Shown here in pieces: positions 6,062 to 41,047 of a stretch of 41,157 nucleotides of DNA; position 1 is the first letter of the stretch; the number at the start of each line of letters is the position of its first letter. The position numbers and the translations under genes are program-made. Under the pieces are notes generated by a model. It ran no database searches. It worked only from the letters and a program-made list of their open reading frames with translations, and was not told where the DNA came from. The DNA comes from Ruminococcus sp. (GTDB lineage Bacteria > Bacillota > Clostridia > Oscillospirales > Ruminococcaceae): positions 1 to 41,157 of the forward strand of contig JAKSQT010000012.1 of assembly GCA_024403995.1 (NCBI GenBank), in the 5' to 3' direction.

Positions 6062-6078
6062 CATTGTTTGCTATAAGC

Positions 6079-6164
6079 GCGGATTGAGAGATTTGAACTC
6101 TCGCGCCGGTTTCCCGACCTACTCCCTTAGCAGGGGAGCCCCTTCACCACTTGGGTAAATCCGC
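6079..6164 (-). tRNA. tRNA-Ser(GCU), copy 1
   Basis: An 86-nt tRNA on the minus strand with acceptor stem GCGGATT/AATCCGC, a long class II variable arm, T-arm GTTCAAATC and anticodon GCT in the context CCCTGCTAAGGG. The 3' CCA is not encoded (CTT follows the discriminator G). It reads AGC/AGU codons. It is co-transcribed with tRNA-Ser(UGA) just upstream. Confidence 0.95.
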
Positions 6165-6173
6165 ATAAAAATA

Positions 6174-6262
6174 TGGCGGAGAGGGTGGGATTCGAACCCA
6201 CGTGACCGTTAAGTCAAACGGTTTTCAAGACCGCCTCGTTATGACCGCTTCGATACCTCTCC
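6174..6262 (-). tRNA. tRNA-Ser(UGA), copy 1
   Basis: An 89-nt class II tRNA on the minus strand with acceptor GGAGAGG/CCTCTCC, anticodon TGA in the context GTCTTGAAAAC, T-arm GTTCGAATC and an encoded CCA. It lies 9 nt upstream of tRNA-Ser(GCU) and reads UCN codons, mainly UCA. Confidence 0.95.
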
Positions 6263-6296
6263 GTGTGTGATTGGTTTATCTTCAATCGACTTATAT

Positions 6297-6325
6297 ATTA
6301 TATCACAGCAAAATCAAAAAGTCAA
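6297..6325 (-). promoter_or_regulatory. Promoter of tRNA-Ser pair, copy 1
   Basis: The minus strand has TTGACT, a 17-nt spacer and TATAAT. The -10 box is about 35 nt upstream of the tRNA 5' end. The downstream end of the spacer (GCTGTGA) is identical in copy 2. Confidence 0.85.
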
Positions 6326-6354
6326 GTATTTTTTTGAAAAATTTATTGTTTCTT

Positions 6355-6395
6355 GGAAAATAAAAAAACTGTATCACGCAAACTACGCAATACAG
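6355..6395 (-). terminator. Terminator of the second tRNA-Ser pair
   Basis: On the minus strand CTGTATTGCG and CGTGATACAG pair over 10 bp (two G-U pairs, 7-nt loop TAGTTTG). They are followed by TTTTTTTATTTT. This terminator differs in sequence from that of copy 1. Confidence 0.85.
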
Positions 6396-6412
6396 CCGTT
6401 TTCTTAATAAAC

Positions 6413-6498
6413 GCGGATTGAGAGATTTGAACTCTCGCGCCGGTTTCCCGACCTACTCCCTTAGCAGGGGAGCCCCTTCACCACTTGGGTAAATCCGC
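6413..6498 (-). tRNA. tRNA-Ser(GCU), copy 2
   Basis: This appears identical in sequence to copy 1 at 6079-6164, offset by 334 nt: same anticodon GCT, same acceptor stem, no encoded CCA. Confidence 0.95.
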
Positions 6499-6507
6499 AT
6501 AAAAATA

Positions 6508-6596
6508 TGGCGGAGAGGGTGGGATTCGAACCCACGTGACCGTTAAGTCAAACGGTTTTCAAGACCGCCTCGTTATGACCGCTTCGATACCTCTCC
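6508..6596 (-). tRNA. tRNA-Ser(UGA), copy 2
   Basis: This appears identical to copy 1 at 6174-6262, offset by 334 nt: anticodon TGA, CCA encoded. The identity with copy 1 ends within a few bases upstream of the tRNA 5' end. Confidence 0.95.
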
Positions 6597-26951: not shown

Positions 26952-27707
26952 ATGCTTGCAAAAAGAATAATACCATGCCTTGACGTGAGAAACGGCAAGG
27001 TTGTTAAAGGCGTGAATTTTGAGGGAGTACGTGATGTCGGTGATCCTGTTGAATGTGCTGCTGAGTACAACAAACAGGGCGCTGATGAACTTGTATTCTA
27101 CGATATAACCGCATCTTTCGAGGGCAGAGGTGTATTCCTTGATGTGGTGCGTGATACTGCAAAAAAGGTTTTTGTACCGCTTACAGTCGGAGGCGGAATA
27201 AAGAATGTCGATGATATCCGTGAGGCTCTCCGTGCAGGTGCAGATAAAGTATCTGTAAACTCACAGGCTGTGAAAAATCCACAGCTTATCAAGGATGGCG
27301 CTGATATTTTCGGCAGTCAGTGTATCTGCGTGGGAATTGATGCAAAGAAGATTGCCGAACAGAAATGGACTGTTTATATAAACGGCGGACGTGTTGATAT
27401 GGGCATTGACCTTATTGACTGGGTGCATACCATTGAAAAGCTCGGTGCAGGCGAAATATGCCTTAATTCCATAGATGCCGACGGCACCAAGGAAGGCTTT
27501 GATATCGATATGCTGAAGGCTGTGTGCAATAACTGCTCGATACCTGTCATCGCAAGCGGCGGCGCAGGAAAGATAAACGATTTCTATGAGGTCTTTGAGA
27601 AAACAGGCGCTACTGCGGCTCTTGCGGCTTCACTTTTCCACTTTAAGGAACTGACTGTCGGCGAGGTAAAGGACTACTGCCGCAGCAAGGGTGTAATTGT
27701 CCGCTGA
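26952..27707 (+). CDS. hisF: Imidazole glycerol phosphate synthase, cyclase subunit
   Basis: HisF joins ammonia from HisH to PRFAR, giving IGP and AICAR. ATG 26952 has AAAGGAG 7 nt upstream. The 251-residue barrel shows [18 protein letters not shown] (catalytic Asp11), [30 protein letters not shown] (second catalytic Asp) and VIASGGAG. The stop overlaps the start of the following ATPase gene (TGATG). Confidence 0.98.
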
Positions 27708-28429
27708 TGTTTATTCGCAGTGTTCAGATAAACGATTTATCACAGTGCGAGGAATACGTCAGATGTCTTGGCGCTGTGCGTCAGATATGCGATATGGGCG
27801 GACTGCCGCTTGACCGGTCTGTTACAATTTTTTCAGGCGAAAACGGAAGCGGAAAATCTACTCTGCTTGAAGCAATAGCCGTAAAATACGGTTTCAATCC
27901 TGAGGGCGGCTCAATGAATTTCTCCTTTTCAACAGAGGAAACGCATTCATCACTGCACAGTGCGGTGAAGCTGGTAAGAGAGATCGAACGCCCGAAAACA
28001 GGTTTTTTTCTGCGTGCCGAGACTTTTTACAATGCGGCATCATATATCGCCGGAATGGACAAGGAAGTGTTGAAAGCATACGGCGGAACATCCCTGCATG
28101 ACCAGTCGCACGGCGAGAGTTTTTTCTCATTGTTCATGAACAGGTTCACGGTTCACGGATTTTATATACTCGATGAGCCTGAAGCCGCACTTTCGCCGTC
28201 ACGTCAGATGTCGCTGATGATACGTCTGCATGAGCTTGCGGAGAAGGGAAGTCAGTTTATAATTGCTACCCATTCGCCGCTTCTGCTTGCATATCCCAAT
28301 GCGCTGGTGTATGAACTGAACAGCGACGGAATTGCCGAAATACCGTATGAACAGACCGAATGTTTTCAGACGGTCAGAGCGTTTATGCAAAGTCCTGAAA
28401 GAATGCTCAGAAATTTGTTTGAGGAGTGA
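27707..28429 (+). CDS. ABC/SMC-type AAA ATPase (COG3910-like)
   Basis: A 240-residue stand-alone ATPase of the predicted AAA_21/AAA_23 type. Walker A is FSGENGSGKST (42-52). A signature-like QSHGESFFSLF lies near 133-143. Walker B is FYILDEPEAALSP and the H-loop is IIATHSPLL. There is no membrane domain and no nuclease domain. Such proteins are often annotated as OLD-like or RecF-like predicted ATPases with unknown function. It is coupled to hisF by a one-base overlap, yet is not a histidine gene. Confidence 0.88.
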   Translation: MFIRSVQINDLSQCEEYVRCLGAVRQICDMGGLPLDRSVTIFSGENGSGKSTLLEAIAVKYGFNPEGGSMNFSFSTEETHSSLHSAVKLVREIERPKTGFFLRAETFYNAASYIAGMDKEVLKAYGGTSLHDQSHGESFFSLFMNRFTVHGFYILDEPEAALSPSRQMSLMIRLHELAEKGSQFIIATHSPLLLAYPNALVYELNSDGIAEIPYEQTECFQTVRAFMQSPERMLRNLFEE

Positions 28430-29668: not shown

Positions 29669-30211
29669 ATGACTGATCTGAAAAATATGAGCAAGTTTAT
29701 CAGCCTGATACTGCGCCATAAGCCTGAAACTATAGGTATTCAGCTTGATGAGCACGGATGGGCTGAGGTCGACAGCCTTATTGAAGGTATAAACAGAAAC
29801 GGCGGTCAGAAAATCAGCATGGCTGTGCTTGAAGAAATTGTCAGAACAGATGAAAAGCAGCGATACAGCTTTAATGAGGACAAAACTCTTATCCGTGCAA
29901 ATCAGGGACATTCGGTGCAGGTCGATGTTGAGCTTGAAGAAAAAAATCCGCCTGAATTTCTATATCACGGAACAGGCGAAAAATATGTTGATTCAATTCT
30001 GAAAGAGGGACTGAAACCTAAAAGCAGACTGTATGTGCATCTTTCGGCTGATACTGAAACTGCACACAAGGTCGGCATAAGACATGGAAAGCCGCATATT
30101 TTCAGGATAAGATCAGGAGAAATGTCACGGAACGGCATAAAATTCTTCATTTCCGCAAACGGAGTATGGCTGACTAAGGCTGTGCCTGTTGAATATATTG
30201 AAGACAACTGA
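29669..30211 (+). CDS. kptA: RNA 2'-phosphotransferase (Tpt1/KptA family)
   Basis: KptA moves a 2'-phosphate from RNA to NAD+, giving ADP-ribose 1'',2''-cyclic phosphate. In fungi the substrate comes from tRNA splicing; bacteria lack that pathway and the native role is unsettled. The 180-residue protein has the family N-terminus LSKxLS-like MSKFISLILRHKPE (Arg16, His17), WAEVDSLIEG, the NAD-binding LYHGTGEKYVDSILKEGL, and the FISANGVWLTKAVP end. GAGGTGATG precedes the ATG. It is the last of the non-histidine genes before hisI. Confidence 0.94.
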   Translation: MTDLKNMSKFISLILRHKPETIGIQLDEHGWAEVDSLIEGINRNGGQKISMAVLEEIVRTDEKQRYSFNEDKTLIRANQGHSVQVDVELEEKNPPEFLYHGTGEKYVDSILKEGLKPKSRLYVHLSADTETAHKVGIRHGKPHIFRIRSGEMSRNGIKFFISANGVWLTKAVPVEYIEDN

Positions 30212-30921: not shown

Positions 30922-30985
30922 CAGAATTTGAAAAAATCCCCTCGTAGCTAACGGCGGTACTCATACAGAAGTTTGTACTATTTAT

Positions 30986-31020
30986 CGGGGCAAACCTTTC
31001 TGAGGAAAGGTTCTTCCCCG
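30986..31020. repeat. Left-arm hairpin of the inverted duplication
   Basis: CGGGG-CAAACCTTTC, a TGAG loop, and GAAAGGTT-CTT-CCCCG form a near-complete stem. The matching hairpin in the right arm differs in sequence but pairs as well, so pairing seems to be kept. Confidence 0.65.
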
Positions 31021-31120
31021 AACCCCTTTCCAAAGACTTTCAGTATTATGGCGTATCTTATACAGGACATATGTCCTGTATAAGATACGCTAAAACACCT
31101 AAAAGTTTTAGGAAGGGAGT

Positions 31121-31157
31121 TTGAGGGAGAACCCTTTTTCAAAAGGGTTTCCCTCAA
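31121..31157. repeat. Right-arm hairpin of the inverted duplication
   Basis: TTGAGGGA-GAACCCTTTT, a TC loop, and AAAAGGGTT-TCCCTCAA pair almost fully. Just before it, CCTAAAA-G-TTTTAGG (31098-31112) is another small perfect dyad. Confidence 0.65.
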
Positions 31158-31200
31158 TAATAAGCATAAAGTTTCTATATGAGTACCGCCGTTATGCTAC

Positions 31201-31214
31201 GAGGGGATTTTTTT
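31201..31214 (+). terminator. U-tract end of the inverted duplication, likely terminator for hisE
   Basis: On the plus strand the right terminal repeat ends GGGGATTTTTTT, so the paired arms would form a giant stem followed by seven U. On the minus strand the left end likewise gives GGGGATTTTTT, serving the convergent five-gene operon. Bidirectional termination is an inference from structure. Confidence 0.55.
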
Positions 31215-31235: not shown

Positions 31236-34200
31236 TTATTCCTCATTTTTGCCGATGACGTTGGTAAGCTGGAGGATTATCTCGCTGAAATAGCGTTTGT
31301 TGACATCTCCGATATTTATCGGATTTTTGTAATCAGAGGCTTTGAAGAATTTGAGTTTTTCAATAGTAACATCTTCCGAGCCGTATTCAAAAACGCCGAT
31401 ATATGTGCCTGAGAATGAAAGCTCTGCGATATATCCGAGATTTTCACAGGTTCCGTCAGGATTACGTTTAAGACCTGAGATATCCTTGCGGAGAAATTCC
31501 ATGAACCAGCCTGCATCCTGAGCCTGTCCTTTATCCCAGCCGTATTTGGTCATTCTTCCGCAGAGAGCCTGATTATCGATTTCTTCACCGTCAAATCTGT
31601 CTATCTCATTCTTTGAAAGTTCTTTGTCATCTGCGGTGAATATTTCTCTTGAAAGCTGTGGGAAAGGCTGTGTTATCTCATAGTCGGAAAGCTGTTCAGA
31701 CCATGTGCTGCGTTCATCTTCTGTAAGTTCGATAGGATGAACGAGACCGATAAGAGCGTTTTCGTCAAGTTCAAATTCATCTTCATCAGAAGTGGTGAAT
31801 GAGCCGTCATCGAGATAACGGAAGGTCGTGACAAGCTTGCCGTCCTCGTATGTGCCCCAGATAAGTCCGATAGCAAAGCAGTGCATAACAGGATTGGCTA
31901 CGAAAAGCTTTTTCCAGTTTTCGGCAGTCCATTTTCTGTCACACATAAGAACATATTCCAGACGTGCCTTCTGCGATGAAACGACATTTTTCATCTGCTT
32001 CTTCATTTCCTTGAATTCATTGTATGATTTTTCGGCTATCTCAGCATCATCGGAAACACCCGGTTTAGGCATACTTTTAACTTTCTTGTCACCGTTGAAT
32101 ATTTCGATCTCAAGGTCAGGCGTGAGGTATACATTAAACTGACGCTTGCCGTAGTCAAATACTCTGCACATTTTTTCGTCAAATCCCATGTCAGGAACGA
32201 TTCTGTCAGAAAGCTCCTCTTTGGTAATTCCGAGCTGGTCAGCGGCATAGAGAAGGGCATTGTTTGCAGCTGAGCGAACTTGTTTGTTCTTGAATTTACG
32301 TGACATATTATCTACGTTCATAAGGGCGGCGGAACTGCCGTTGAGAGCAAGTGCCTTAACAGCTTCGGCAGCAATTGCACTACGCATATTTTCAGCCCAG
32401 TACTTGATATAGTACATGAGGTTGTCTATCATATCAGAGCCGCCGTAAACGCCTGAGAAATAGAGTACCCATTTTGTTTTTGCGGCTGCACCGTCTTCGA
32501 CCCATTTGCCGAAAAGTTCGTTTGCAAAACGGGTAAGGTCATTTTTATCCAGCATATCCGAGAATTTTTCTGCGATAGGATTGACAATGCCAGCCTCCGG
32601 AGCATAGCACATTATGAGACTTTTCAGGATATCCGATGACTCGTCGGAACCGTCTTTTAGATGAACAAGGGAGTATTTGCCTTCCCATACCCAGTCTATC
32701 TTCTTTGCACGATTTCCGCCGGTAAGTTTCTTTATTTCGTCTTCAATTGATAAAGCCGCAGCAGCAGTATCATTGGAAATATTTTTCTGACCGAGCAGAA
32801 CGGCGATCCTGTTTTTGAGTTTATCGGATTTTTCTGTTTCAAGAGCTTTGCTCAGGGCATCATTGAAATCAGCAGCGCCTTTTTTCTCGATTATTGAAAC
32901 AGCTGTTTCACGAATTGCGCTCTTTTTTGATGAAAGGAGTGCGGCTATTTCGTCATTCCATTTGGAATTTGCGATAATCGGGATAAGTTTTTCTTTTACG
33001 GCTTTGCTTGTATCCGAAGTGAGCGAGAGGAGAAGTTCCTTGTTTCTGTTTGGATTTTTGCTGATGACATCAATAAGAATTAAACGTGAATAAAGCGGGA
33101 ATCCGTCAGGCTTGACATCCGAGAATATATTCGGATATTTTTCAAGAGCATTCAGAGCAAAGCTCATTTCCTCATTGATGCTGTATGAATAGAAGCCTGC
33201 CATAAGATTGCCGAGCATATAAAGAACAACGTCGGCAGGAATTTTTTCATTCATCATAGTGTCTATAAGCTTGCTTTCCTTTTTTGACATACTTATGCCT
33301 GTATGATATGATGTATTGCTGCTTGGATCGTCTGTACAGAGAAGCGTTACGAATATACTGTGCAATATAAGTTCATCAAAACCGTATGAAGAACAGTATG
33401 AACTGCCGTTTTTCCAGCGGTATGAGCCGATTTTCTTATCCTTTATCAGCGGATATATCTCATTGAATGTAGTTTTTCCGAGAAGATAATTTCTGACAGC
33501 CTCAGAAGCATCATTGTCATCAAACTTAGCGGCAACAGTATTGACCATCTGCATTTTAATGTCAGAGAGCTGCTTTTCAATGTCGATTTTTATTTCCGGC
33601 TTTTCGGCTTTGAGAATATCATACATAATTCTTATTTTGTCCGGTGCATCACTTGCAGTAATGGCAGAAACGTAATCATCAGTAAATTCTCTGGCAAGTC
33701 TTTTGAAAACTTCTTTTTTGTCAAGACAAGTCCGTGCAAGAGCGGTAATATATTCAGCATTGACAATTCCGGGAACGTTTGTGACAGCATTGAGAAATCT
33801 GTCCGAAGAACGATAGCTGAATCGGGTAACAATGTCAATATCAATTTTTTTTATATTATCAGCAAACAGCTTTTTAAGCTTTTCGGAGAAAAATGAGCCT
33901 TCGCCGACAGCAACAAGGTCATTATTGATAATATAATATCCTGAAATATCAACACTATGATTTGAGAAGTAATCCTCAATAATTCTGACAGCTTTTTCTG
34001 CGGCATCCGAAAGGCGTTTTTTATCCTTTGGAAGCGGCTGTTCCTGAAGAATTCTGCTGCTTAATAAAATTGAATAATAATCTGATTTTTTACTTGTAAT
34101 TTCAGCCGCTTTTAAAAGAAGTTCAGTATTTTTACATTTCGTATCTTTCAAAGCTATGAGGATATGCACCTGTGCATCATCTTCGCCGTACTCTGAAATA

Positions 34201-34550
34201 AGAGCATCTTTTATCCTTGTATTTGCATCATCATAAGCACCTCTGAGATAATTGCAGCAATCACTGCTTGTCAGCTTGTACAAGGCAATGATAAAACGCT
34301 GAGTAAGCTCGTCATCTCTTTTCTTCTTGATATCGGAAGTGACAGCATTAAAAAAATTAGATGTAACATTGTTGTAAAAAAAAGTTTGTCCTGCAGGAAT
34401 GGTCTTGATTTTGTCAAGAAGTTTGATGTCACGTTCATTGTCGGTATCAATATACGCAATGATATTGCCGATAGTTTCAGCATCGATTCCGAGACCTGTC
34501 ATAGCCTCTGAGAGTTTGTCGAATTTGTTTGAGCCGTTTGTATAGATCAT
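31236..34550 (-). CDS. Giant DUF4132-like protein (YehI-like)
   Basis: A 1104-residue soluble protein, last gene of the five-gene minus operon. The N-terminal 1-470 is helical and without a recognised domain. Residues about 470-620 look like HEAT-type helical repeats (KEKLIPIIANSKWNDEIAALLSSKK, given in parts elsewhere in the chain). The C-terminal part from WVWEGKYSLVHL (about 620) to the end matches the DUF4132 pattern, including VLMCDRKWTAENWKKLF (about 872) and FAIGLIWGTYEDG. Escherichia coli YehI (MolR-related) has the same C-terminal domain. Unlike YehI, no WGR domain is evident at the N-terminus. AAAGGA lies 11 nt upstream; the gap to the SWIM gene is 18 nt. Biochemical function is not known. 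Confidence 0.82.
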   Translation of the reverse strand: MIYTNGSNKFDKLSEAMTGLGIDAETIGNIIAYIDTDNERDIKLLDKIKTIPAGQTFFYNNVTSNFFNAVTSDIKKKRDDELTQRFIIALYKLTSSDCCNYLRGAYDDANTRIKDALISEYGEDDAQVHILIALKDTKCKNTELLLKAAEITSKKSDYYSILLSSRILQEQPLPKDKKRLSDAAEKAVRIIEDYFSNHSVDISGYYIINNDLVAVGEGSFFSEKLKKLFADNIKKIDIDIVTRFSYRSSDRFLNAVTNVPGIVNAEYITALARTCLDKKEVFKRLAREFTDDYVSAITASDAPDKIRIMYDILKAEKPEIKIDIEKQLSDIKMQMVNTVAAKFDDNDASEAVRNYLLGKTTFNEIYPLIKDKKIGSYRWKNGSSYCSSYGFDELILHSIFVTLLCTDDPSSNTSYHTGISMSKKESKLIDTMMNEKIPADVVLYMLGNLMAGFYSYSINEEMSFALNALEKYPNIFSDVKPDGFPLYSRLILIDVISKNPNRNKELLLSLTSDTSKAVKEKLIPIIANSKWNDEIAALLSSKKSAIRETAVSIIEKKGAADFNDALSKALETEKSDKLKNRIAVLLGQKNISNDTAAAALSIEDEIKKLTGGNRAKKIDWVWEGKYSLVHLKDGSDESSDILKSLIMCYAPEAGIVNPIAEKFSDMLDKNDLTRFANELFGKWVEDGAAAKTKWVLYFSGVYGGSDMIDNLMYYIKYWAENMRSAIAAEAVKALALNGSSAALMNVDNMSRKFKNKQVRSAANNALLYAADQLGITKEELSDRIVPDMGFDEKMCRVFDYGKRQFNVYLTPDLEIEIFNGDKKVKSMPKPGVSDDAEIAEKSYNEFKEMKKQMKNVVSSQKARLEYVLMCDRKWTAENWKKLFVANPVMHCFAIGLIWGTYEDGKLVTTFRYLDDGSFTTSDEDEFELDENALIGLVHPIELTEDERSTWSEQLSDYEITQPFPQLSREIFTADDKELSKNEIDRFDGEEIDNQALCGRMTKYGWDKGQAQDAGWFMEFLRKDISGLKRNPDGTCENLGYIAELSFSGTYIGVFEYGSEDVTIEKLKFFKASDYKNPINIGDVNKRYFSEIILQLTNVIGKNEE

Positions 34551-34568
34551 AATATATCATCCTTTCGT

Positions 34569-36332
34569 TCACTGCATTGCAGTTATTATTTCAAGTTTAT
34601 TCTGTGCGGCGGCGATGTAGGTGAGGATATCGCTCATCAGCACGATAATGTCTGCGGCAGTTTTTTCGCCGCCGTGACGGTAGGATTCAGCAGCAGACAT
34701 AAATTCCGCAGTCAGTTTTGCAAGTCCTTTCAGACCGCAGTTATTCAGCTTATTTTCAAGTTCTTTGTCATTTATCCCGCCCGATTGCAGACCGCACTGG
34801 AGAGTAATTTCAATTTTGTTCCGTACATCGCTCAGTGTGCTGAGAATTGCATACGCATAATATGCATCTTCCTCAGAAAATTTGTATTCATCAGGCAGAA
34901 TATAATCCTTATGCGGCTGAGGAGTGATGAAATCATAGACTTCAATAGGAAAGAAATTCAGCCTTCCGTTTTCGGTATATGCGGAAACGAGCATGACAAA
35001 GTATGTATCCTGATTTTCAAGTATTTTTTTTCCGATTTTTTCAAGAGTCTCAATAAACTCTTTAGTTTCGGCACGGTATTTCACTTTGATGTCAGTCGTT
35101 CTGCCATTGCAGTCCTCGATGTTCATGAGAAAAGTCTGGGTATACTTGTCAAATACCGATGAATTGACCTTGGTCGGGTGAATAAAGAACAGCCTGTCAG
35201 CCTCGCTGCGTACTTCACGGCTGAAAAGTTCAGCGGTAGCAGCCGAAAAATCGTCCATAATAATGCTGTGGAGTTCAGGACAGTCAAGTTTTGCGGCAGT
35301 CTGTGCAAGTACCGACGTTTCCTGAGAAGATGACAGTTTTCCGCCGTTGATCTTAGCATTTCCGAGAACCATTTTCGTCCGCATCATATTTTTAAGCGGA
35401 GTGCCGAGTCCCCACGGTACAACATTCTGTACGGCAGTCCTCCGTCTTTCGGAGACCTCATAAAACACTGGGCGCAGGTCGGAAAGAGTAAGAAAGCGCT
35501 GCTTTGCATTTTCGTCCATGTTCAGAAAATAGTAGATATCACCCTCATATTCACCGCCTGCGACCTGTCGCTGACCGATTGGAAGAATGGTCAGCTTGTC
35601 ATTGCAAGCATCATATTTCTGACGGAAAACACCAAGTTCATTGGCAGTGATATTGCTTTCGGAAAGACGGCTGAGAAGCTTCACACAGTCAAAGAATTTT
35701 TCCGTAAATATCCGTATGCTGAAAGAAGCACGTCTTGCGATGCAGTCACCAAGTTTGCCGCCGAGTTCACGGACAGCACGTTCGGCATCAGCCATTTTCA
35801 GAGCATGACAGCGGACGGCATTGACTTCAAGATTTTCAGCCTCAGCATCAGGAACACGAACCAGTCCGTGTTTCAGGATATCTTCAAGTGCCGCAAGAGA
35901 CTGCTTAGCACAGATATTGATTTTTTCTATTTGTTTTGCAGTGAGCTTTTCAGTCACATCTTCAGGTTCGGGCGTAGTTTCAGGTTTGTTTTCGGGATTA
36001 TTTTCTGTTTTGGTTTCTGACTGCGGTTCAGGTCGTTCATTGTCAGCCGTTACTGACGCAGATTCGGAAACAGTGCTTTTCATAAGCAGAATTGCCGATA
36101 AGATATGTCTGCATACGGTACGTGAAACGCATGAGCATTTGCATTCCGTAAGCGGAGTTTTCAGCGTGACTGTCTCGCCGCCGACAGAAATTTCTGCTGT
36201 ATCACCGTTATTTTTTATATCGGGAGCAACACCGTCGATATCTTTGACAGCACGTTTGTAAAGTCCTTTGTTGGCGAGGCTGACAAGAAAATCTTCATCA
36301 GCCGCCGCAACTGCTTTTAAAAGTTCATTCAT
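34569..36332 (-). CDS. SWIM zinc-finger protein (YehQ-like)
   Basis: A 587-residue protein. A SWIM zinc finger sits at residues 64-76: Cys64-x-Cys66, seven residues, Cys74-x-His76 (an additional Cys68 lies between). SWIM domains bind DNA or proteins. A Pro/Glu/Thr linker (about 92-128) leads to a large helical C-terminal region without recognised motifs. In E. coli the SWIM protein YehQ lies next to VWA and MoxR partners, as here. A Cys-rich finger plus a large scaffold suggests recognition of a nucleic acid or a client. It lies 17 nt after the VWA gene. Confidence 0.8.
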   Translation of the reverse strand: MNELLKAVAAADEDFLVSLANKGLYKRAVKDIDGVAPDIKNNGDTAEISVGGETVTLKTPLTECKCSCVSRTVCRHILSAILLMKSTVSESASVTADNERPEPQSETKTENNPENKPETTPEPEDVTEKLTAKQIEKINICAKQSLAALEDILKHGLVRVPDAEAENLEVNAVRCHALKMADAERAVRELGGKLGDCIARRASFSIRIFTEKFFDCVKLLSRLSESNITANELGVFRQKYDACNDKLTILPIGQRQVAGGEYEGDIYYFLNMDENAKQRFLTLSDLRPVFYEVSERRRTAVQNVVPWGLGTPLKNMMRTKMVLGNAKINGGKLSSSQETSVLAQTAAKLDCPELHSIIMDDFSAATAELFSREVRSEADRLFFIHPTKVNSSVFDKYTQTFLMNIEDCNGRTTDIKVKYRAETKEFIETLEKIGKKILENQDTYFVMLVSAYTENGRLNFFPIEVYDFITPQPHKDYILPDEYKFSEEDAYYAYAILSTLSDVRNKIEITLQCGLQSGGINDKELENKLNNCGLKGLAKLTAEFMSAAESYRHGGEKTAADIIVLMSDILTYIAAAQNKLEIITAMQ

Positions 36333-36349
36333 AGTACACCTCCTGACCG

Positions 36350-37486
36350 TCAGCTAAATATCCTGCCGAGGTAATCGCCGAGCTGTTCGGGTGTCATAGC
36401 GCCGACAAATGCGCCCATATCCGCAAGCTTCTGACCAAGAGTACGGTCAAATGCAGGATTAGCCTCTTCATCAAGAGCAGTCAGAAAGCTGAGTTTTGCT
36501 CCGCTTGTAATTATATTGCGGCTTGTATTGAGCAGATATTTTTCGGATGCGCCCTCATACAGGTCAGTGACGATGATAACAGCAGTCTGCAAAGGCGTTT
36601 CGATAAGCTGGTCACAGTATGCAGCGGCTTTTCCGATATCCGTACCGCCTCCGAGCTGAACGCTCATAAGAATTTGTGCCGGATCATCGGCATAATCCGA
36701 GAGGTCAACCACACTTGTATCAAAAATTACAAGTTTCAGCTCTGCAAACGGCAGACTTGCAATTATCTGAGCCATTACAGCACTGTGGATAATAGAGCCT
36801 GTCATTGAGCCGCTTTCGTCGATCGCAATTATCACACGCTTGTTATTGTATTTTTTGACACGGTTGCTGAAATAGATATCCTTCAGAATAAGCTTCTGCG
36901 ATTCTGTATCGAAATTCTTTAGATTTCGGCGTATCGTCTTGGTAATATCAAGGTTTCTTGCCGAATGTACGGGACTGGAGCTGTTTCTGTCAATACGTCC
37001 GAGAATTGAGCGCTTAACATCATTTTCGAGTTTCTGCCGCAGTTCTTCAGCGACCTGACGTGCGATATTTCGTGCTGTTTCCAGTACCTCGCCTTTCATG
37101 AGATGTTTAAGCTGGAGAACTGTTTTGAGCAGATCCATATCAGGCGTGATTTTTTTCAGCACAGCATTATCAGTAAGCAGTTCGGTCATGTGAAATTCAT
37201 CAAGTGCGTGTTTTTCCATGATCTCGGCAGTTTTTTTCGGAAATAGAGTACGCACTTTTGTGATCCATTCGGCGGCTGAGATGACTGACGGACTGAGACT
37301 GCCGCTCCGTCCGTCCGTGCGGACATCATCGCCCTGAGAACGGCTGTAGAGGTAGTCAAGAAGTTCCTCCATGTCCATGAACGAAGCCACTTCTCTTTCA
37401 CCGCCTGAAAATGAGAGCTGTTTGTCGGAAAGACTGCCGAGAATCAGCCTCCATCTGTTAACGGAAGTTTCTGAATTGCTGTTCAT
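36350..37486 (-). CDS. VWA-domain protein with intact MIDAS (YehP/CoxE-like)
   Basis: A 378-residue protein. The N-terminal half (1-200) is helical and charged. The C-terminal VWA domain begins at KRVIIAIDESGSMTGS (about 215-230), giving the MIDAS DxSxS. The other metal ligands are present: Thr in GGGTDIG (about 282) and Asp in VTDLYEG (about 307). Such CoxE/YehP-type VWA proteins work with MoxR AAA+ ATPases, which use ATP to remodel or metallate a target held by the VWA partner. The ATG overlaps the stop of the upstream DUF5682-like gene (ATGA), so the two are coupled. Confidence 0.88.
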   Translation of the reverse strand: MNSNSETSVNRWRLILGSLSDKQLSFSGGEREVASFMDMEELLDYLYSRSQGDDVRTDGRSGSLSPSVISAAEWITKVRTLFPKKTAEIMEKHALDEFHMTELLTDNAVLKKITPDMDLLKTVLQLKHLMKGEVLETARNIARQVAEELRQKLENDVKRSILGRIDRNSSSPVHSARNLDITKTIRRNLKNFDTESQKLILKDIYFSNRVKKYNNKRVIIAIDESGSMTGSIIHSAVMAQIIASLPFAELKLVIFDTSVVDLSDYADDPAQILMSVQLGGGTDIGKAAAYCDQLIETPLQTAVIIVTDLYEGASEKYLLNTSRNIITSGAKLSFLTALDEEANPAFDRTLGQKLADMGAFVGAMTPEQLGDYLGRIFS

Positions 37487-39882
37487 GAAAGCAGCGCCTC
37501 CTTTCCGAGTAAACTGAATATATCGGTGTCGAGTTTTGCACCGAATGCAAATAATTTTTCATCGATGCCCTTTTGGTTAAGAATGTCATTTTTATCTGAA
37601 TTATTGATCTTTGCCGCAGATTCGGCAAGTGTCTGTATTTCATCAGGCGTGAAATATCCGAATGCAAGGCGCATTGACGGAAGAATATCCATAAAATCGT
37701 CATATTCCATTTCCGTGATGAGGGTATCGGTCATATTCAAAAATGTATCATCAGCGAGTACGATATCCCTTGCCGAGCTGAAAAGTCCACGCAGATATTC
37801 AGCACCAAGCTTTTTAATTTCAGGAGTACCTTTAAGGAATCCTGCCATAGCGTTTTCAGCATCACTGCGTCGGTCGGGGTCTATCGCATAGAGAATGCCC
37901 ATAGCAGAGCCGAAAACAGACGGTTCTTTTTCAGCTGCCTCAACAAGGGTGAGGAGAGACTGTTCAAAAACAGAGAGTTTTTCCGGAAGTATCCTTGAAG
38001 CTACAGAGAACATCTCACGCATGATATCAGTGCATTCATCGGCTTTTTCACGGGGAGCATCCGCCATTGACGGCAGGGAAGAAATGAGTTTGTCAAAGCA
38101 TCTTTCAACGTAATTCAGTTCGCCTGCATCGTCGAAGCTGTAAAGCTGACGGAGGCTGTGAAGAACTTCAAATTTATGAAGTGCTCTGCCTGCCGAGAAG
38201 AAATCACCGTCGTTTGCGAGAATAAGATCAAGCTGTTCGTATTCCGATTCAGTGAGAGGAATACCCATAAGAAAGCAGTCAACAGCGATATCAGCGGCAT
38301 TGTCACAGCGGCGTTCAGTCTTCATTTTCTTTGCCGCAAATGAGGAACAGGCTTCTTCAATTGTAAAGCCGTCGGTCATATGGTCAATAAGAGCGGCATC
38401 AACATTTGGTGTGCGTCTGTAGCTCCATTCCTCACGGACACGGCTCCTGTCCTTGTTATTCCGCAGGTCAGGGCCTTTTTTGCGTTTGGCAAAGTCTGTT
38501 CCGAGAAAAGCCATACGATGAAGAAAACGGCTCTGCTCCATGCCTTTCTGTGTAGTAAAAAGCGGAACATCAAGAGTTTTCGGTACAACGGAAGTATGCT
38601 TGATTCCAAGCTTGTCACAATTTTTTTCAAAGTCGGTGATAAGGGGAGGAATGTGCTGTTTATCTCCGATCTTTCCGACGGCTTCACCTGTAGCGATAGT
38701 TTTCAGTATATCAAGCGGCATTGCTGATGAAACAGTTTTTTCGCCCTTGATAAATGTACTTGTGATGCCGTCTATAAGCTCAAACATACCGCATTCAGGA
38801 GAATTTCTCAGTGCGGCAAGTCCCTGCATGAGAGTGAGTGCAGACGAGACATCTGCGGTCGATACGGCAATATCCTTTTTGGCAGATGCCTTTGAGGTCT
38901 TTACGAGAAGGTCGAGAGTGAGGTCATTATAAACATTTTCGGGACTGTCGTTTTCGGAAAGCTTTTTTGAGACCGAGTCGTAGAAAAATGGATAGCTCAT
39001 GCCCGAAGCATAGCCATGCAGAGCGTCAGCGGCTTCATATGAGTAAGCCATAGGGTAGCTGCCCTGCAAAGTATCGGGAATTGTATGGAGCTTTGGTGCT
39101 TTGAAATTCTTATTCTGCAAAAGCGTATGCAAGCCGATGCTGTGGAAACCTCCCGTAACGGAAAGAACTTTTCCGAACTGCTCCATAGCCTCTGAAATAC
39201 GCATAGCCATATGGTTTTCACGTACATTTGTACCATCTGCATCAAGTTCGGCATCGGGGACATCCTGACGTGAAAGAATACAGTATGTATGCATCTGTCT
39301 GATAAAATCCTGCGGACTGAGGCGAAGTCCCTGAATTTCAAAGTATTTCTCCCAGAATTCCTCAAAACTTCTAAGACCTGTTTTTTCGCAGAGTTTTTTA
39401 TAGAACTGACTGCGGATAAGACCTGAATCATCGGCATACGAGTGCCTTTCGGCATTCTGGCGCAGACCTTTGCCGCTTGATGTGCTTATAAGTATCTCAC
39501 AGTAGGGGAGATCTATGAATTTTGCAGGAATCCCCAGTTTTTTAGCTTCATTTACGGCATTGTATTCAGGTGAAGAATTAAGAAACGGATAGTAGCATTT
39601 ATAGTCTCCGCCCTCATCATTGATAAGCTTTTTTGTATCTTTGTAGAAATAATAGAGAGCGGCAGGGAGCTGAGTATCCTCATGGGTAAGCGACGGAATA
39701 AGCTCATTGGCATTTTCAGGACCTTCAATGAGAATGATATCAGGCTTGTATTCCTTTATCGTTCTGACAAGCTGAAAAGAGCAGACAGGGCTGTGATGTC
39801 TGACAGGAAAAAGCAGAAGCGGCTGGTCAAAGCTGCACGGAATTATTTCAGAAGCTTTGCTGTCTCGGAGTATTCTTTCCAT
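37483..39882 (-). CDS. DUF5682-like protein (YehM-like)
   Basis: A 799-residue protein. The N-terminal region resembles DUF5682: LFPVRHHSPVCSFQLVRTI, PDIILIEGPENANELIP, and GGFHSIGLHTLLQ near residue 240. The His-His, Glu-Gly-Pro and Gly-Phe-His elements recall the EreA/ChaN/TraB-like fold, so a hydrolase or metal-binding activity is possible but not shown. The C-terminal half is helical. The start lies inside the upstream AAA+ gene (40-nt overlap) with GGTGG 4 nt before the ATG. E. coli YehM holds the same place between YehL and YehP. Confidence 0.78.
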   Translation of the reverse strand: MERILRDSKASEIIPCSFDQPLLLFPVRHHSPVCSFQLVRTIKEYKPDIILIEGPENANELIPSLTHEDTQLPAALYYFYKDTKKLINDEGGDYKCYYPFLNSSPEYNAVNEAKKLGIPAKFIDLPYCEILISTSSGKGLRQNAERHSYADDSGLIRSQFYKKLCEKTGLRSFEEFWEKYFEIQGLRLSPQDFIRQMHTYCILSRQDVPDAELDADGTNVRENHMAMRISEAMEQFGKVLSVTGGFHSIGLHTLLQNKNFKAPKLHTIPDTLQGSYPMAYSYEAADALHGYASGMSYPFFYDSVSKKLSENDSPENVYNDLTLDLLVKTSKASAKKDIAVSTADVSSALTLMQGLAALRNSPECGMFELIDGITSTFIKGEKTVSSAMPLDILKTIATGEAVGKIGDKQHIPPLITDFEKNCDKLGIKHTSVVPKTLDVPLFTTQKGMEQSRFLHRMAFLGTDFAKRKKGPDLRNNKDRSRVREEWSYRRTPNVDAALIDHMTDGFTIEEACSSFAAKKMKTERRCDNAADIAVDCFLMGIPLTESEYEQLDLILANDGDFFSAGRALHKFEVLHSLRQLYSFDDAGELNYVERCFDKLISSLPSMADAPREKADECTDIMREMFSVASRILPEKLSVFEQSLLTLVEAAEKEPSVFGSAMGILYAIDPDRRSDAENAMAGFLKGTPEIKKLGAEYLRGLFSSARDIVLADDTFLNMTDTLITEMEYDDFMDILPSMRLAFGYFTPDEIQTLAESAAKINNSDKNDILNQKGIDEKLFAFGAKLDTDIFSLLGKEALLS

Positions 39883-40952
39883 AATCCACCAACCTTAGCG
39901 CTTTTTTCCTTAACGGCTGTTCTGAAATAGCCTTTCAGCTTTTCAAGGTCATTTTTGTTTTCCTTGCATACTGCACCGAGGAGATTTTCGGTCAGAATGC
40001 CGATATCTGTCTTTCCGTTGCCATAGTACCATGAATGGCTGATAGTCTGATAGAAAACGGAAACAGCCTCAGCTGTACTCATAACGGCTGAAGGCTTTTC
40101 AACGATAGTACCCTCTGCGGTAACGCCCTCACGCAGTTCATGGTAAGTAACAGCAAGAAGCTCGGCTGCATCAGTATCAACAGGCATATCAATATGACCT
40201 GCGGCGGCGAGGTTTTCAGCTTCACGTACAATAATAGCCTTTTCAAGACGAACATCCCTTACAGGCTCGACAGTTTCAAAATTGAAGCGTCGCTTCAGAG
40301 CGCCTGACATTTCATTTACGCCTTTATCACGAGTGTTTGCAGTACCGATGATATTGAAGCCGGGGCGTGCAAAAACAAGTCCGTCATCGCCAAGTTCAGG
40401 GATATTCAGTATCTGGTCGCTCATGACAGAGATAAGGCTGTCCTGAATTTCGGCAGGAGTACGGGTGATTTCCTCGAAACGGGCGAAAATTCCCTGTTCC
40501 ATTCCGACAAGAAGGGGAGCGGGGACAAGTGCTTCACGGCATGGACCTTTTGAGAGGAGCAGTGCATAGTTCCAGCTGTATTTTATCATATCCTCAGTTG
40601 TACCTGCCGTACCCTGAACGGTATTCGTGCTTGAACCGCAGCAAGCGGCTGAGAGAAGTTCCGAAAGCATAGTTTTAGCAGTACCCGGTTCACCGACAAG
40701 CATCAGTCCACGGTTTCCTGCAAGGGTTATGATGCATCTTTCGACGAGGGCGTCATTGCCGTAGAATTTTTTTGGGATATCAACAGTACCGTTCGGAGTC
40801 TGCACTTTTCCGCCGAGAATGAAAGTTCTTACGGCTTTTGGGGAAAGTTTCCAGTTCTGCGGCTTTTTGTTGTCGGTATCGGCGGATTTTAATGCTTCAA
40901 GTTCATCAGCATAGCGTATTTCCACAGGTGGTTTGATAAGTTTTTGTTCCAT
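39843..40952 (-). CDS. MoxR-type AAA+ ATPase (YehL-like)
   Basis: First gene of the five-gene operon, 369 residues. Walker A is GEPGTAKT (87-94). In place of the usual DE the Walker B region reads GIFARFEEITRTP (154-166, Glu160-Glu161). Sensor 1 is GTANTRD (203-209) and the arginine-finger region is ALKRRF (218-223). The lid domain occupies about 240-340. This matches the YehL branch of MoxR ATPases, thought to act as hexameric remodellers with VWA partners. AAAGGATTC gives a ribosome site upstream of the ATG. Residues 20-40 hold a poorly conserved linker. Confidence 0.88.
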   Translation of the reverse strand: MEQKLIKPPVEIRYADELEALKSADTDNKKPQNWKLSPKAVRTFILGGKVQTPNGTVDIPKKFYGNDALVERCIITLAGNRGLMLVGEPGTAKTMLSELLSAACCGSSTNTVQGTAGTTEDMIKYSWNYALLLSKGPCREALVPAPLLVGMEQGIFARFEEITRTPAEIQDSLISVMSDQILNIPELGDDGLVFARPGFNIIGTANTRDKGVNEMSGALKRRFNFETVEPVRDVRLEKAIIVREAENLAAAGHIDMPVDTDAAELLAVTYHELREGVTAEGTIVEKPSAVMSTAEAVSVFYQTISHSWYYGNGKTDIGILTENLLGAVCKENKNDLEKLKGYFRTAVKEKSAKVGGLWKEYSETAKLLK

Positions 40953-40968
40953 AATAAGAATCCTTTCG

Positions 40969-41028
40969 ATGGTATAAAATACAGTATTGAACTGTAAAAA
41001 ATATCAGGTTTTTGATTAATTATACCAT
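40969..41028. promoter_or_regulatory. Nested inverted repeats in the control region of the five-gene operon
   Basis: ATGGTATAA (40969-40977) and TTATACCAT (41020-41028) are a perfect 9-bp inverted repeat, the right half overlapping the -10 box. Between them TACAGT-ATTGA-ACTGTA (40980-40996) is a second dyad that would lie in the 5' untranslated RNA. Repressor binding across the two outer half-sites, or looping, would cover the promoter. No regulator gene is in the window. Confidence 0.45.
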
Positions 41029-41047
41029 AAAATCATTCATTTGTCTA
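41019..41047 (-). promoter_or_regulatory. Promoter of the five-gene MoxR/VWA operon
   Basis: On the minus strand TAGACA (41042-41047), a 17-nt spacer and TATAAT (41019-41024). The start codon of the AAA+ gene is about 65 nt downstream of the -10 box. Confidence 0.75.

Follow-up and report, generated by a model that had tools for sequence, protein, structure and literature searches.

A five-gene YehL-type MoxR operon of Ruminococcus sp. with a probable TraB/PrgY-related domain in DUF5682 and a fast-diverging DUF4132 protein

MoxR-type AAA+ ATPases are divided into named subfamilies, and YehL is one of the seven listed in PMC3893208. A working mode for comparison is that of NorQ-NorD, in which a finger of the VWA partner lies inside the AAA+ pore and ATP drives a twisting movement (PMC13036017). 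Sets of vWA, MoxR and VMAP proteins are reported beside CRISPR loci (PMC10910872), and these are of the VMAP kind rather than the YehL type. Here a YehL-type operon is described from Ruminococcus sp. (assembly GCA_024403995.1, contig JAKSQT010000012.1). The whole stretch analysed, 41,157 nucleotides (nt), is called the window. Its five genes encode a MoxR ATPase, a DUF5682 protein, a VWA protein, a SWIM zinc-finger protein and a DUF4132 protein, and almost certainly work as a single system. Nearly all E. coli carry this five-gene machine, as do many gut anaerobes, and no established function was found for it. The open-licence PubMed Central (PMC) literature gave nothing on DUF5682, on MoxR with SWIM and DUF4132, or on MoxR with a SWIM zinc finger, although print elsewhere is possible. 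In the same literature, the excerpts returned for DUF5691, DUF5682 and YehQ terms contained nothing on this gene set, and the passage found for pairs of yehL, yehM, yehP, yehQ, yehI and yehH merely lists genes.

The features of the operon, in the order of transcription, are:
41019..41047, minus strand: likely operon promoter, TAGACA-17-TATAAT with TG before the -10 element (consensus scan, 11/12)
39843..40952, minus strand: MoxR-type AAA+ ATPase of the YehL subfamily, 369 aa (Pfam AAA_5 3.7e-30; 46% identity to YehL)
about 40284-40706, minus strand: AAA_5 core of MoxR (Pfam)
39843..39882, minus strand: out-of-frame overlap of the MoxR 3' end and the DUF5682 start, 40 nt
37483..39882, minus strand: DUF5682 protein (YehM family), 799 aa (Pfam DUF5682 2.8e-90)
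39103..39825, minus strand: TraB/PrgY/TIKI-like N-terminal domain of DUF5682, residues ~20-260, very probable (profile searches, hhalign)
36350..37486, minus strand: VWA (CoxE-like) protein, 378 aa (Pfam VWA_CoxE 5.3e-36)
about 36383-37018, minus strand: VWA domain (Pfam VWA_CoxE)
34569..36332, minus strand: SWIM zinc-finger protein (YehQ family), 587 aa (YehQ BLASTP)
36105..36137, minus strand: SWIM finger C66-x-C68-x5-C74-x-H76 (alignment of relatives)
31236..34550, minus strand: DUF4132 (MolR/YehI family) protein, 1104 aa (Pfam DUF4132 3.1e-51)
33051..34550, minus strand: rapidly diverging front half of the DUF4132 protein (residues 1-500), a proposed recognition region
31536..32087, minus strand: DUF4132 domain, the conserved part of the protein (Pfam; pairwise identity)

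The original prediction, made from the sequence alone, had placed five genes on one strand, and their coordinates, the overlaps of 40 nt (MoxR/DUF5682) and 4 nt (DUF5682/VWA) and the gaps of 17 nt (VWA-SWIM) and 18 nt (SWIM-DUF4132) were all verified. Its match to E. coli yehL-yehM-yehP-yehQ plus yehI also holds. BLASTP found K-12 relatives for all five proteins (YehL 2.6e-102, YehM 2.3e-38, YehP 3.2e-89, YehQ 1.9e-6, YehI 4.7e-53), and the Pfam matches to DUF5682 and DUF4132 were present. An NCBIfam scan of the five proteins gave nothing above cut-off. One promoter for all five genes is likely from the sequence, as had been proposed: the best minus-strand match of the scan lies directly upstream of the operon, where 205 bp are visible (the window is the whole contig). 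Shuffled sequences also yield many such matches (18.3, versus 30 in the region), so the shared promoter is likely at most.

The five genes are linked far beyond the window. With the MoxR alignment as the only bait in a genome collection, the best 80 of at least 582 confirmed relatives were kept, and 57 of these 80 loci contain all five genes. The order is MoxR-DUF5682-VWA-SWIM-DUF4132 in 54 of the complete loci and the circular permutation VWA-SWIM-DUF4132-MoxR-DUF5682 in 3. Among the 23 incomplete loci, 14 are at contig ends (in one of them, L074, the 1.8 kb that follow MoxR contain no DUF5682), one is truncated by the 10-kb limit, and in eight a partner is absent or displaced by other genes (L039, L043, L058, L059, L062, L068, L073 and L083). 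Whole-genome relatives gave four complete loci and a fifth with all five genes, its DUF5682 gene cut by the contig end; some of these are also within the set of 80 and are not independent samples. Sinorhizobium, Iodobacter and E. coli also keep the five genes together, in a different order. MoxR and DUF5682 overlap by exactly 40 nt in 71 of 81 loci including the window, and the DUF5682 ATG stands at the overlap position in 73 of the 77 loci holding both genes. Because the overlap length is fixed and the ATG is retained, translational coupling of the two genes is suggested. This co-occurrence, within the collection and across phyla, agrees with the earlier single-system idea.

A sister architecture, SWIM-HEAT-like(DUF5691)-MoxR-DUF5682-VWA, was found in Rhizobium, Deinococcus and the Ruminococcus-group locus L014. 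It was found in part in Methylosinus, without an annotated VWA gene (the plasmid gene table is incomplete), and in L015, where no SWIM gene was confirmed. Its SWIM protein is homologous to the window-type SWIM protein (hhalign 7.6e-9). The HEAT-like protein was considered as a remote DUF4132 protein and rejected, as no similarity was detectable (E 0.072). Separately, a natural DUF5682-VWA_CoxE fusion of 993 aa occurs in another family of the same order (L021, 11447-14428), and the MoxR gene of L054 (2908-4065) and the DUF5682 gene of L095 (11059-13521) are each divided into two open reading frames (ORFs), apparently broken or misassembled.

Walker A and the arginine-finger motif ALKRRF are present in 81 of 81 MoxR proteins, a set that includes the window protein and YehL, and the unusual Walker B RFEEITR in 80 of 81. 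Walker B usually has DE, in contrast to the EE of the YehL-type MoxR. In a sequence search of solved structures the MoxR protein matches midasin. The metal ion-dependent adhesion site (MIDAS) DxSGS with a later TD motif is found in all of 74 VWA proteins, and the strict GGGTD pattern in 35 of them. For the SWIM protein, the Pfam score in the window (0.051) is under the cut-off; its CxC...CxH finger is invariant in 30/30 aligned relatives, at least one CxCx4-6CxH motif occurs in 67/67 SWIM proteins and a stricter pattern in 59/67. The earlier description of an ATP-driven set with an intact MIDAS and SWIM finger is consistent with these motifs. A search of solved structures by sequence gave no convincing relative of the SWIM protein (best E 0.49). 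A second small ORF with a SWIM profile (~100-140 aa) follows the SWIM gene in L058, L064-L067, L069, L071, L078, L084 and others, as if the SWIM protein were split over two genes.

When the Pfam DUF5682 model (PF18934) was scanned against 299 genomes of the phylum, three weak hits below cut-off were obtained, and two of them are proteins with the motifs GTAHVS and ERDxYLAxKI...GAxHxxGI, which we take to be PrgY/TraB motifs. A profile of these two proteins found 18 more, all in loci independently fetched by the Pfam TraB model. In the forward search, made with the DUF5682 N-terminal profile against 1817 ORFs of 150 aa or longer, 19 of the 20 PrgY-set proteins outranked the best unrelated protein (E 0.22); the twentieth had E 0.44, and two DUF5682 fragments also ranked before the best unrelated protein. 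In the reverse search with the PrgY profile, the top 50 hits outside the PrgY set comprised 34 DUF5682 and 16 GumN proteins and nothing else; the search set held 105 DUF5682 ORFs, some being the same gene under two locus names. Consistently, hhalign aligned VRHxS...PDIILIEGP of DUF5682 with GTAHVS...PDTVAVEL of PrgY (E 8.9e-6), and in global mode the second motif too. Three unrelated control profiles, run with a slightly smaller DUF5682 alignment, gave 0.081-0.79, and GumN alone gave a weaker match (0.0016, probability 16%). Among 74 aligned rows, R28, H29, S31 and E53 are retained in 73 (one gap) and D124, R221, E222, M225, G244 and H247 in all 74. No convincing relative was obtained in the solved-structure sequence search (best E 0.097), and the erythromycin-esterase family, used as a yardstick, was found in none of 40 relatives. 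These results indicate that the first ~260 residues of DUF5682 are very probably related to TraB/PrgY, and this TraB/PrgY/GumN (TIKI) kinship is new here.

Tiki proteins are described as metalloproteases that cut Wnt, and their relatives as potential ones (PMC12329661). The N-terminal domain of DUF5682 is a likely hydrolase, predicted to be a metalloenzyme and perhaps a peptidase; hydrolysis by DUF5682 is a prediction because the Tiki relatives themselves are only potential metalloproteases. The original prediction spoke of two large scaffold proteins. The profile searches and hhalign suggest that DUF5682 is more than a scaffold.

The five proteins show a steep conservation gradient. Between the window and five or six relatives of the genus, the identity was 85-91% for MoxR, 75-78% for VWA, 61-66% for DUF5682, 44-53% for SWIM and 40-45% for DUF4132 (excluding a C-terminal DUF4132 fragment of L016, 58%). 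As baselines, PolC gave 76-81% in five genomes, its two pieces in the sixth genome gave 88 and 59%, and a further protein gave 78-80%. The divergence of DUF4132 is concentrated in its front. The mean pairwise identity of 45 clostridial proteins was 17-24% over residues 1-500 and 57-60% over residues 701-1000. In E. coli, the ratios of nonsynonymous to synonymous substitution (4 to 6 strains per gene) were 0.033 for yehL, 0.069 for yehP, 0.10 for yehQ, 0.11 for yehM and 0.20 for yehI, with metG (0.018) and mrp (0.003) as reference genes. All the E. coli yeh genes are constrained, and the DUF4132 gene yehI is the least. A HEAT_2 match in the window DUF4132 protein was below the Pfam cut-off, and the solved-structure sequence search gave no convincing relative (best E 0.029).

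Variability is also seen between the E. coli strains compared, which have two DUF4132 genes each, apart from three in L177 and two plus a remnant in L178. Twelve MolR sequences were compared, each being the first or second DUF4132 gene as picked by similarity. Two annotated pseudogenes, yehI of L175 and the DUF4132 gene that comes first in L186, were not counted as alleles. The identity was 70-81% over codons 61-300, 63-68% over codons 541-660 and 94-99% over codons 721-1260. The MolR sequences of L177 and L185 diverge across the whole front (76-77% overall) and are 94% alike to each other, so they may represent another copy and not an allele. Without them the three values were 83-94%, 74-77% and 94-99%. 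Silent change is likewise elevated in these variable stretches, a pattern that the import of divergent sequence would produce. YehI has a milder version of the same pattern (84-90% in codons 361-600). A recogniser with a fixed docking domain would be expected to combine a variable front and a conserved back, and such a role of the DUF4132 protein is slightly favoured. The steep drop from the motor to DUF4132, and the variable MolR segment at codons 541-660 beside the conserved DUF4132 domain, are new here.

Some operons contain other genes between the core genes. According to Pfam, the inserts between SWIM and DUF4132 include HicA/HicB (L081), DUF6088-AbiEii (L084), a nucleotidyltransferase with NTase_sub_bind (L097) and DUF3990 (L063, which also has NADAR); RhuM lies between core genes in L075. 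These loci all hold the five genes; in four of them the locus ends within the DUF4132 gene. Two of the inserted families, DUF3990 and NADAR, are ADP-ribosylation modules. UvrD-type helicase inserts occur in L073 by Pfam and probably in L080, to judge from two GajB/UvrD matches among 32 inserts, and further inserts include a methyltransferase, an M18 peptidase and some without Pfam match. On the sequence evidence, toxin-antitoxin (TA)-like modules inside the operon in four clostridial loci are new here. In two other loci (L042 and L043), LRR_5 (BspA-type) genes with a common N-terminal pattern are interleaved with the core genes and could be a sensor array; LRR_5 relatives are also present in the flanks of nine loci.

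Taken together, the following mechanism can be proposed. The MoxR hexamer and its VWA partner would form an ATP-driven switch, as in NorQ-NorD, and this switch would act on DUF5682, whose TraB/PrgY/TIKI-like N-terminal domain is the probable catalytic output. The DUF4132 protein, with its variable front and conserved C-terminal domain, and the SWIM protein would recognise a trigger or client, and on recognition the ATP use of MoxR-VWA would hold or release the hydrolase. The likeliest setting would be a conflict with foreign elements, or else dealing with proteins that are damaged or foreign. The gene set, its linkage, the domain homologies, the conservation gradient and the variable segments are observed, and assembly into a complex, catalysis, recognition and the conflict role are inferred from them. 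Our preferred reading, held tentatively, is a TIKI-like hydrolase governed by a MoxR-VWA switch, with DUF4132 and SWIM as the recognising partners, in conflict or proteotoxic stress. A role specifically against invaders is possible, if open to considerable doubt. A further version is unlikely, namely an immune-type system in almost every E. coli, in which the strain-variable MolR/YehI proteins would sense foreign or altered proteins and YehL-YehP would unleash the TIKI-like hydrolase YehM. The TraB/TIKI-like domain and the MolR variable segments turn an anonymous operon into a testable set of motor, adaptor, cutter and variable recognisers. If the preferred reading is true, a second E. coli MoxR gains a role, DUF5682 and DUF4132 are no longer families of unknown function, and the operon may represent an overlooked stress or immune system.

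Several observations weigh against this reading. The E. coli yehLMPQ genes are core genes: of 5426 genomes, 5301 have a match, and in 5162 the match extends over at least 80%. The 16 flank genes scanned singly in relatives were ordinary, and so were most families in 140 sampled flank genes (among the matches listed, 25 of 160). None of the five proteins fits a PADLOC model, the best being a weak IetA ATPase hit (E 0.026). On the inserts PADLOC matched UvrD/GajB-type models in 2 of 32 (among the matches listed, 25 of 185 families), and on the flanks AriA in 4, mad3 in 3, AbiLi in 3 and mad8 in 3 of 140, with others (among the matches listed, 25 of 122 families). None of the TA-like families was found among 1748 flank ORFs (722.7 kb), versus 41.6 kb between core genes, which is suggestive only, as the control queries were drawn from the inserts and favour them. 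The fast divergence of DUF4132 could also come from relaxed constraint on helical repeats, and the variability of MolR codons 61-300 leans largely on L177 and L185. As for the hydrolase, the forward search with DUF5682 did not single out the 32 GumN proteins (best E 0.52), and to our knowledge catalysis by bacterial TraB/PrgY proteins is itself mostly predicted. The possible defence role named in the original prediction is unproven: variable DUF4132 proteins and embedded TA-like modules speak indirectly for it, and E. coli core status weighs against an ordinary accessory defence system.

In the genus and the phylum the distribution is patchy, which favours the preferred reading, as do the changing upstream gene and the plasmid neighbours described below. 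DUF5682 was found in 9 of 35 other genomes of the genus, 6 of them of the DUF4132 type, and over cut-off in 4 of 298 other genomes of the phylum; incomplete assemblies depress both counts. The gene immediately upstream of the operon varies between loci. DUF5682 matches occur in 30 plasmid records, some chromosome-sized, and in one 14-kb 'phage' record. On an Iodobacter plasmid a type I restriction set lies downstream of the yeh-type set, and on a Methylosinus plasmid Imm26 and a VapC toxin pair are encoded near the set. In one conjugative plasmid of E. coli, the yeh block of the chromosome stands between IS26 copies. Loss of the yeh genes is tolerated, since E. coli strain F5446 has no intact yehL and yehM and a branch of sequence type ST131 has a resistance transposon within the DUF4132 region (PMC9334617).

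The strongest alternative, which we consider doubtful, is a maturation chaperone. MoxR-VWA would metallate or remodel a dedicated client, either DUF5682 or a housekeeping complex that is not linked to the operon; DUF4132 and SWIM would serve as adaptors, and there would be no conflict role. This is the known job of the studied MoxR-VWA pairs (NorQD; section 8 of PMC7159879). The VWA protein is CoxE-like, and the core, constrained presence in E. coli fits a housekeeping function. TIKI-like domains are predicted metalloenzymes, so DUF5682 itself could be the client. However, scans of ten window genes and of 16 flank genes in relatives revealed no metalloenzyme client next to the operon, apart from a pyruvate:ferredoxin oxidoreductase gene upstream of it in L019, and the proposal of metallation as in CoxDE lacks the support of a linked metalloenzyme. 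Adaptors for a fixed client would also be expected to be less strain-variable than the DUF4132 proteins, and would not be expected to be patchy within a genus.

It is improbable that the operon is a DNA-damage or general stress module, like the DUF4132 proteins of the Deinococcus radiodurans DdrO/IrrE regulon. In that species DRA0166 (DUF4132) and DR2173 are up with mitomycin C in an IrrE-dependent manner (PMC8533742). In contrast, LexA-like boxes are rare upstream of the operon: GAAC-N4-GTTC and CTGT-N8-ACAG were each found in 1 of 76 regions (0.26 and 0.34 in shuffles). Upstream of yehF, yehH, yehI, yehK and yehL there was no strict LexA box, with one loose match before yehL. The set contains no DNA-repair gene. 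SOS control is not supported by these counts.

A regulator of molybdate or molybdenum cofactor, as the old name MolR implies, is very improbable. The name, the 1990 article on E. coli molR (by its title) and the CoxDE kinship of the VWA protein speak for it. MoaC is required for molybdenum cofactor, and the search for it came up empty in all 40 genomes of the genus, operon carriers included, and was positive in 11 of 14 controls. Of the 40, 24 reach a completeness of 90% or more with contamination of no more than 5%. Barring another cofactor route that is not known, a molybdate role is contradicted for this host. Finally, five unrelated genes that are neighbours by chance are hardly credible, as the set was retained and re-shuffled together across phyla.

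Some further elements lie near the operon. An RNA 2'-phosphotransferase gene, KptA/Tpt1 (Pfam 3.6e-48), stands at 29669-30211 of the window between a GNAT gene and hisI. A link to RNA repair through KptA was set aside with too little support: among the loci read, KptA adjoins the operon in the window only, and an RlaP-like gene precedes two loci. In these two Ruminococcus loci (L036, 4808-5602; L046, 9124-9918) a polymerase-beta-type protein with the motif GSHAYG...SDLD is encoded 82-83 nt upstream of the operon; it is most likely of the RlaP family, which Pfam counted twice among the 140 flank genes. A palindromic element of ~280 bp at window positions 30931-31213, resembling a miniature inverted-repeat transposable element, separates hisE from the 3' end of the operon; its own genome has 74 stretches that match it at the DNA level, many places being counted twice because of the palindrome. 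The window also contains an AAA_21 ATPase gene (27707-28429), with relatives near the operon in L075, L083, L087 and L094, and a tRNA-Ser(GCT)/tRNA-Ser(TGA) pair in two tandem copies (6077-6596).

Compared with known systems, the operon is like the MoxR-vWA ternary conflict systems (VMAP, iSTAND, beta-propeller; PMC7159879) in having a MoxR-vWA pair with proposed effector and sensor proteins. A Pfam scan of the five proteins gave no VMAP, iSTAND or propeller, bpMoxR reached 18.3 bits in the window against a cut-off of 27, and a term search of the main text of PMC7159879 returned no SWIM, TraB or YehL; by the Pfam scan the operon falls outside this group. With NorQ-NorD, CoxD-CoxE and RavA-ViaA it shares a MoxR ATPase and a VWA partner, of the CoxE type in the window; it differs in three extra subunits, including the TraB/TIKI-like protein, and no linked client was recognised. 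With TraB/PrgY/GumN (TIKI) proteins, the N-terminus of DUF5682 has in common the GxxH/E and RE(D)xx(M/L)AxxI...GxxH motifs, whereas the long extra C-terminal region and the MoxR-operon setting are its own. The sister architecture shares MoxR, DUF5682, VWA and the homologous SWIM protein, with a HEAT-like/DUF5691 protein in place of DUF4132. The closest system is E. coli yehL-yehM-yehP-yehQ with yehH/yehI, which has all five families and the identical L-M-P-Q order. In contrast to E. coli, the DUF4132 gene is last in the window and not before yehL, there is one such gene instead of two or three, the operon has no WGR match, and MoxR and DUF5682 overlap by 40 nt where E. coli has a 10-nt gap. 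With a YehL-like MoxR adjoining homologues of YehM, YehP, YehQ and YehI/MolR, the window operon belongs to the YehL type.

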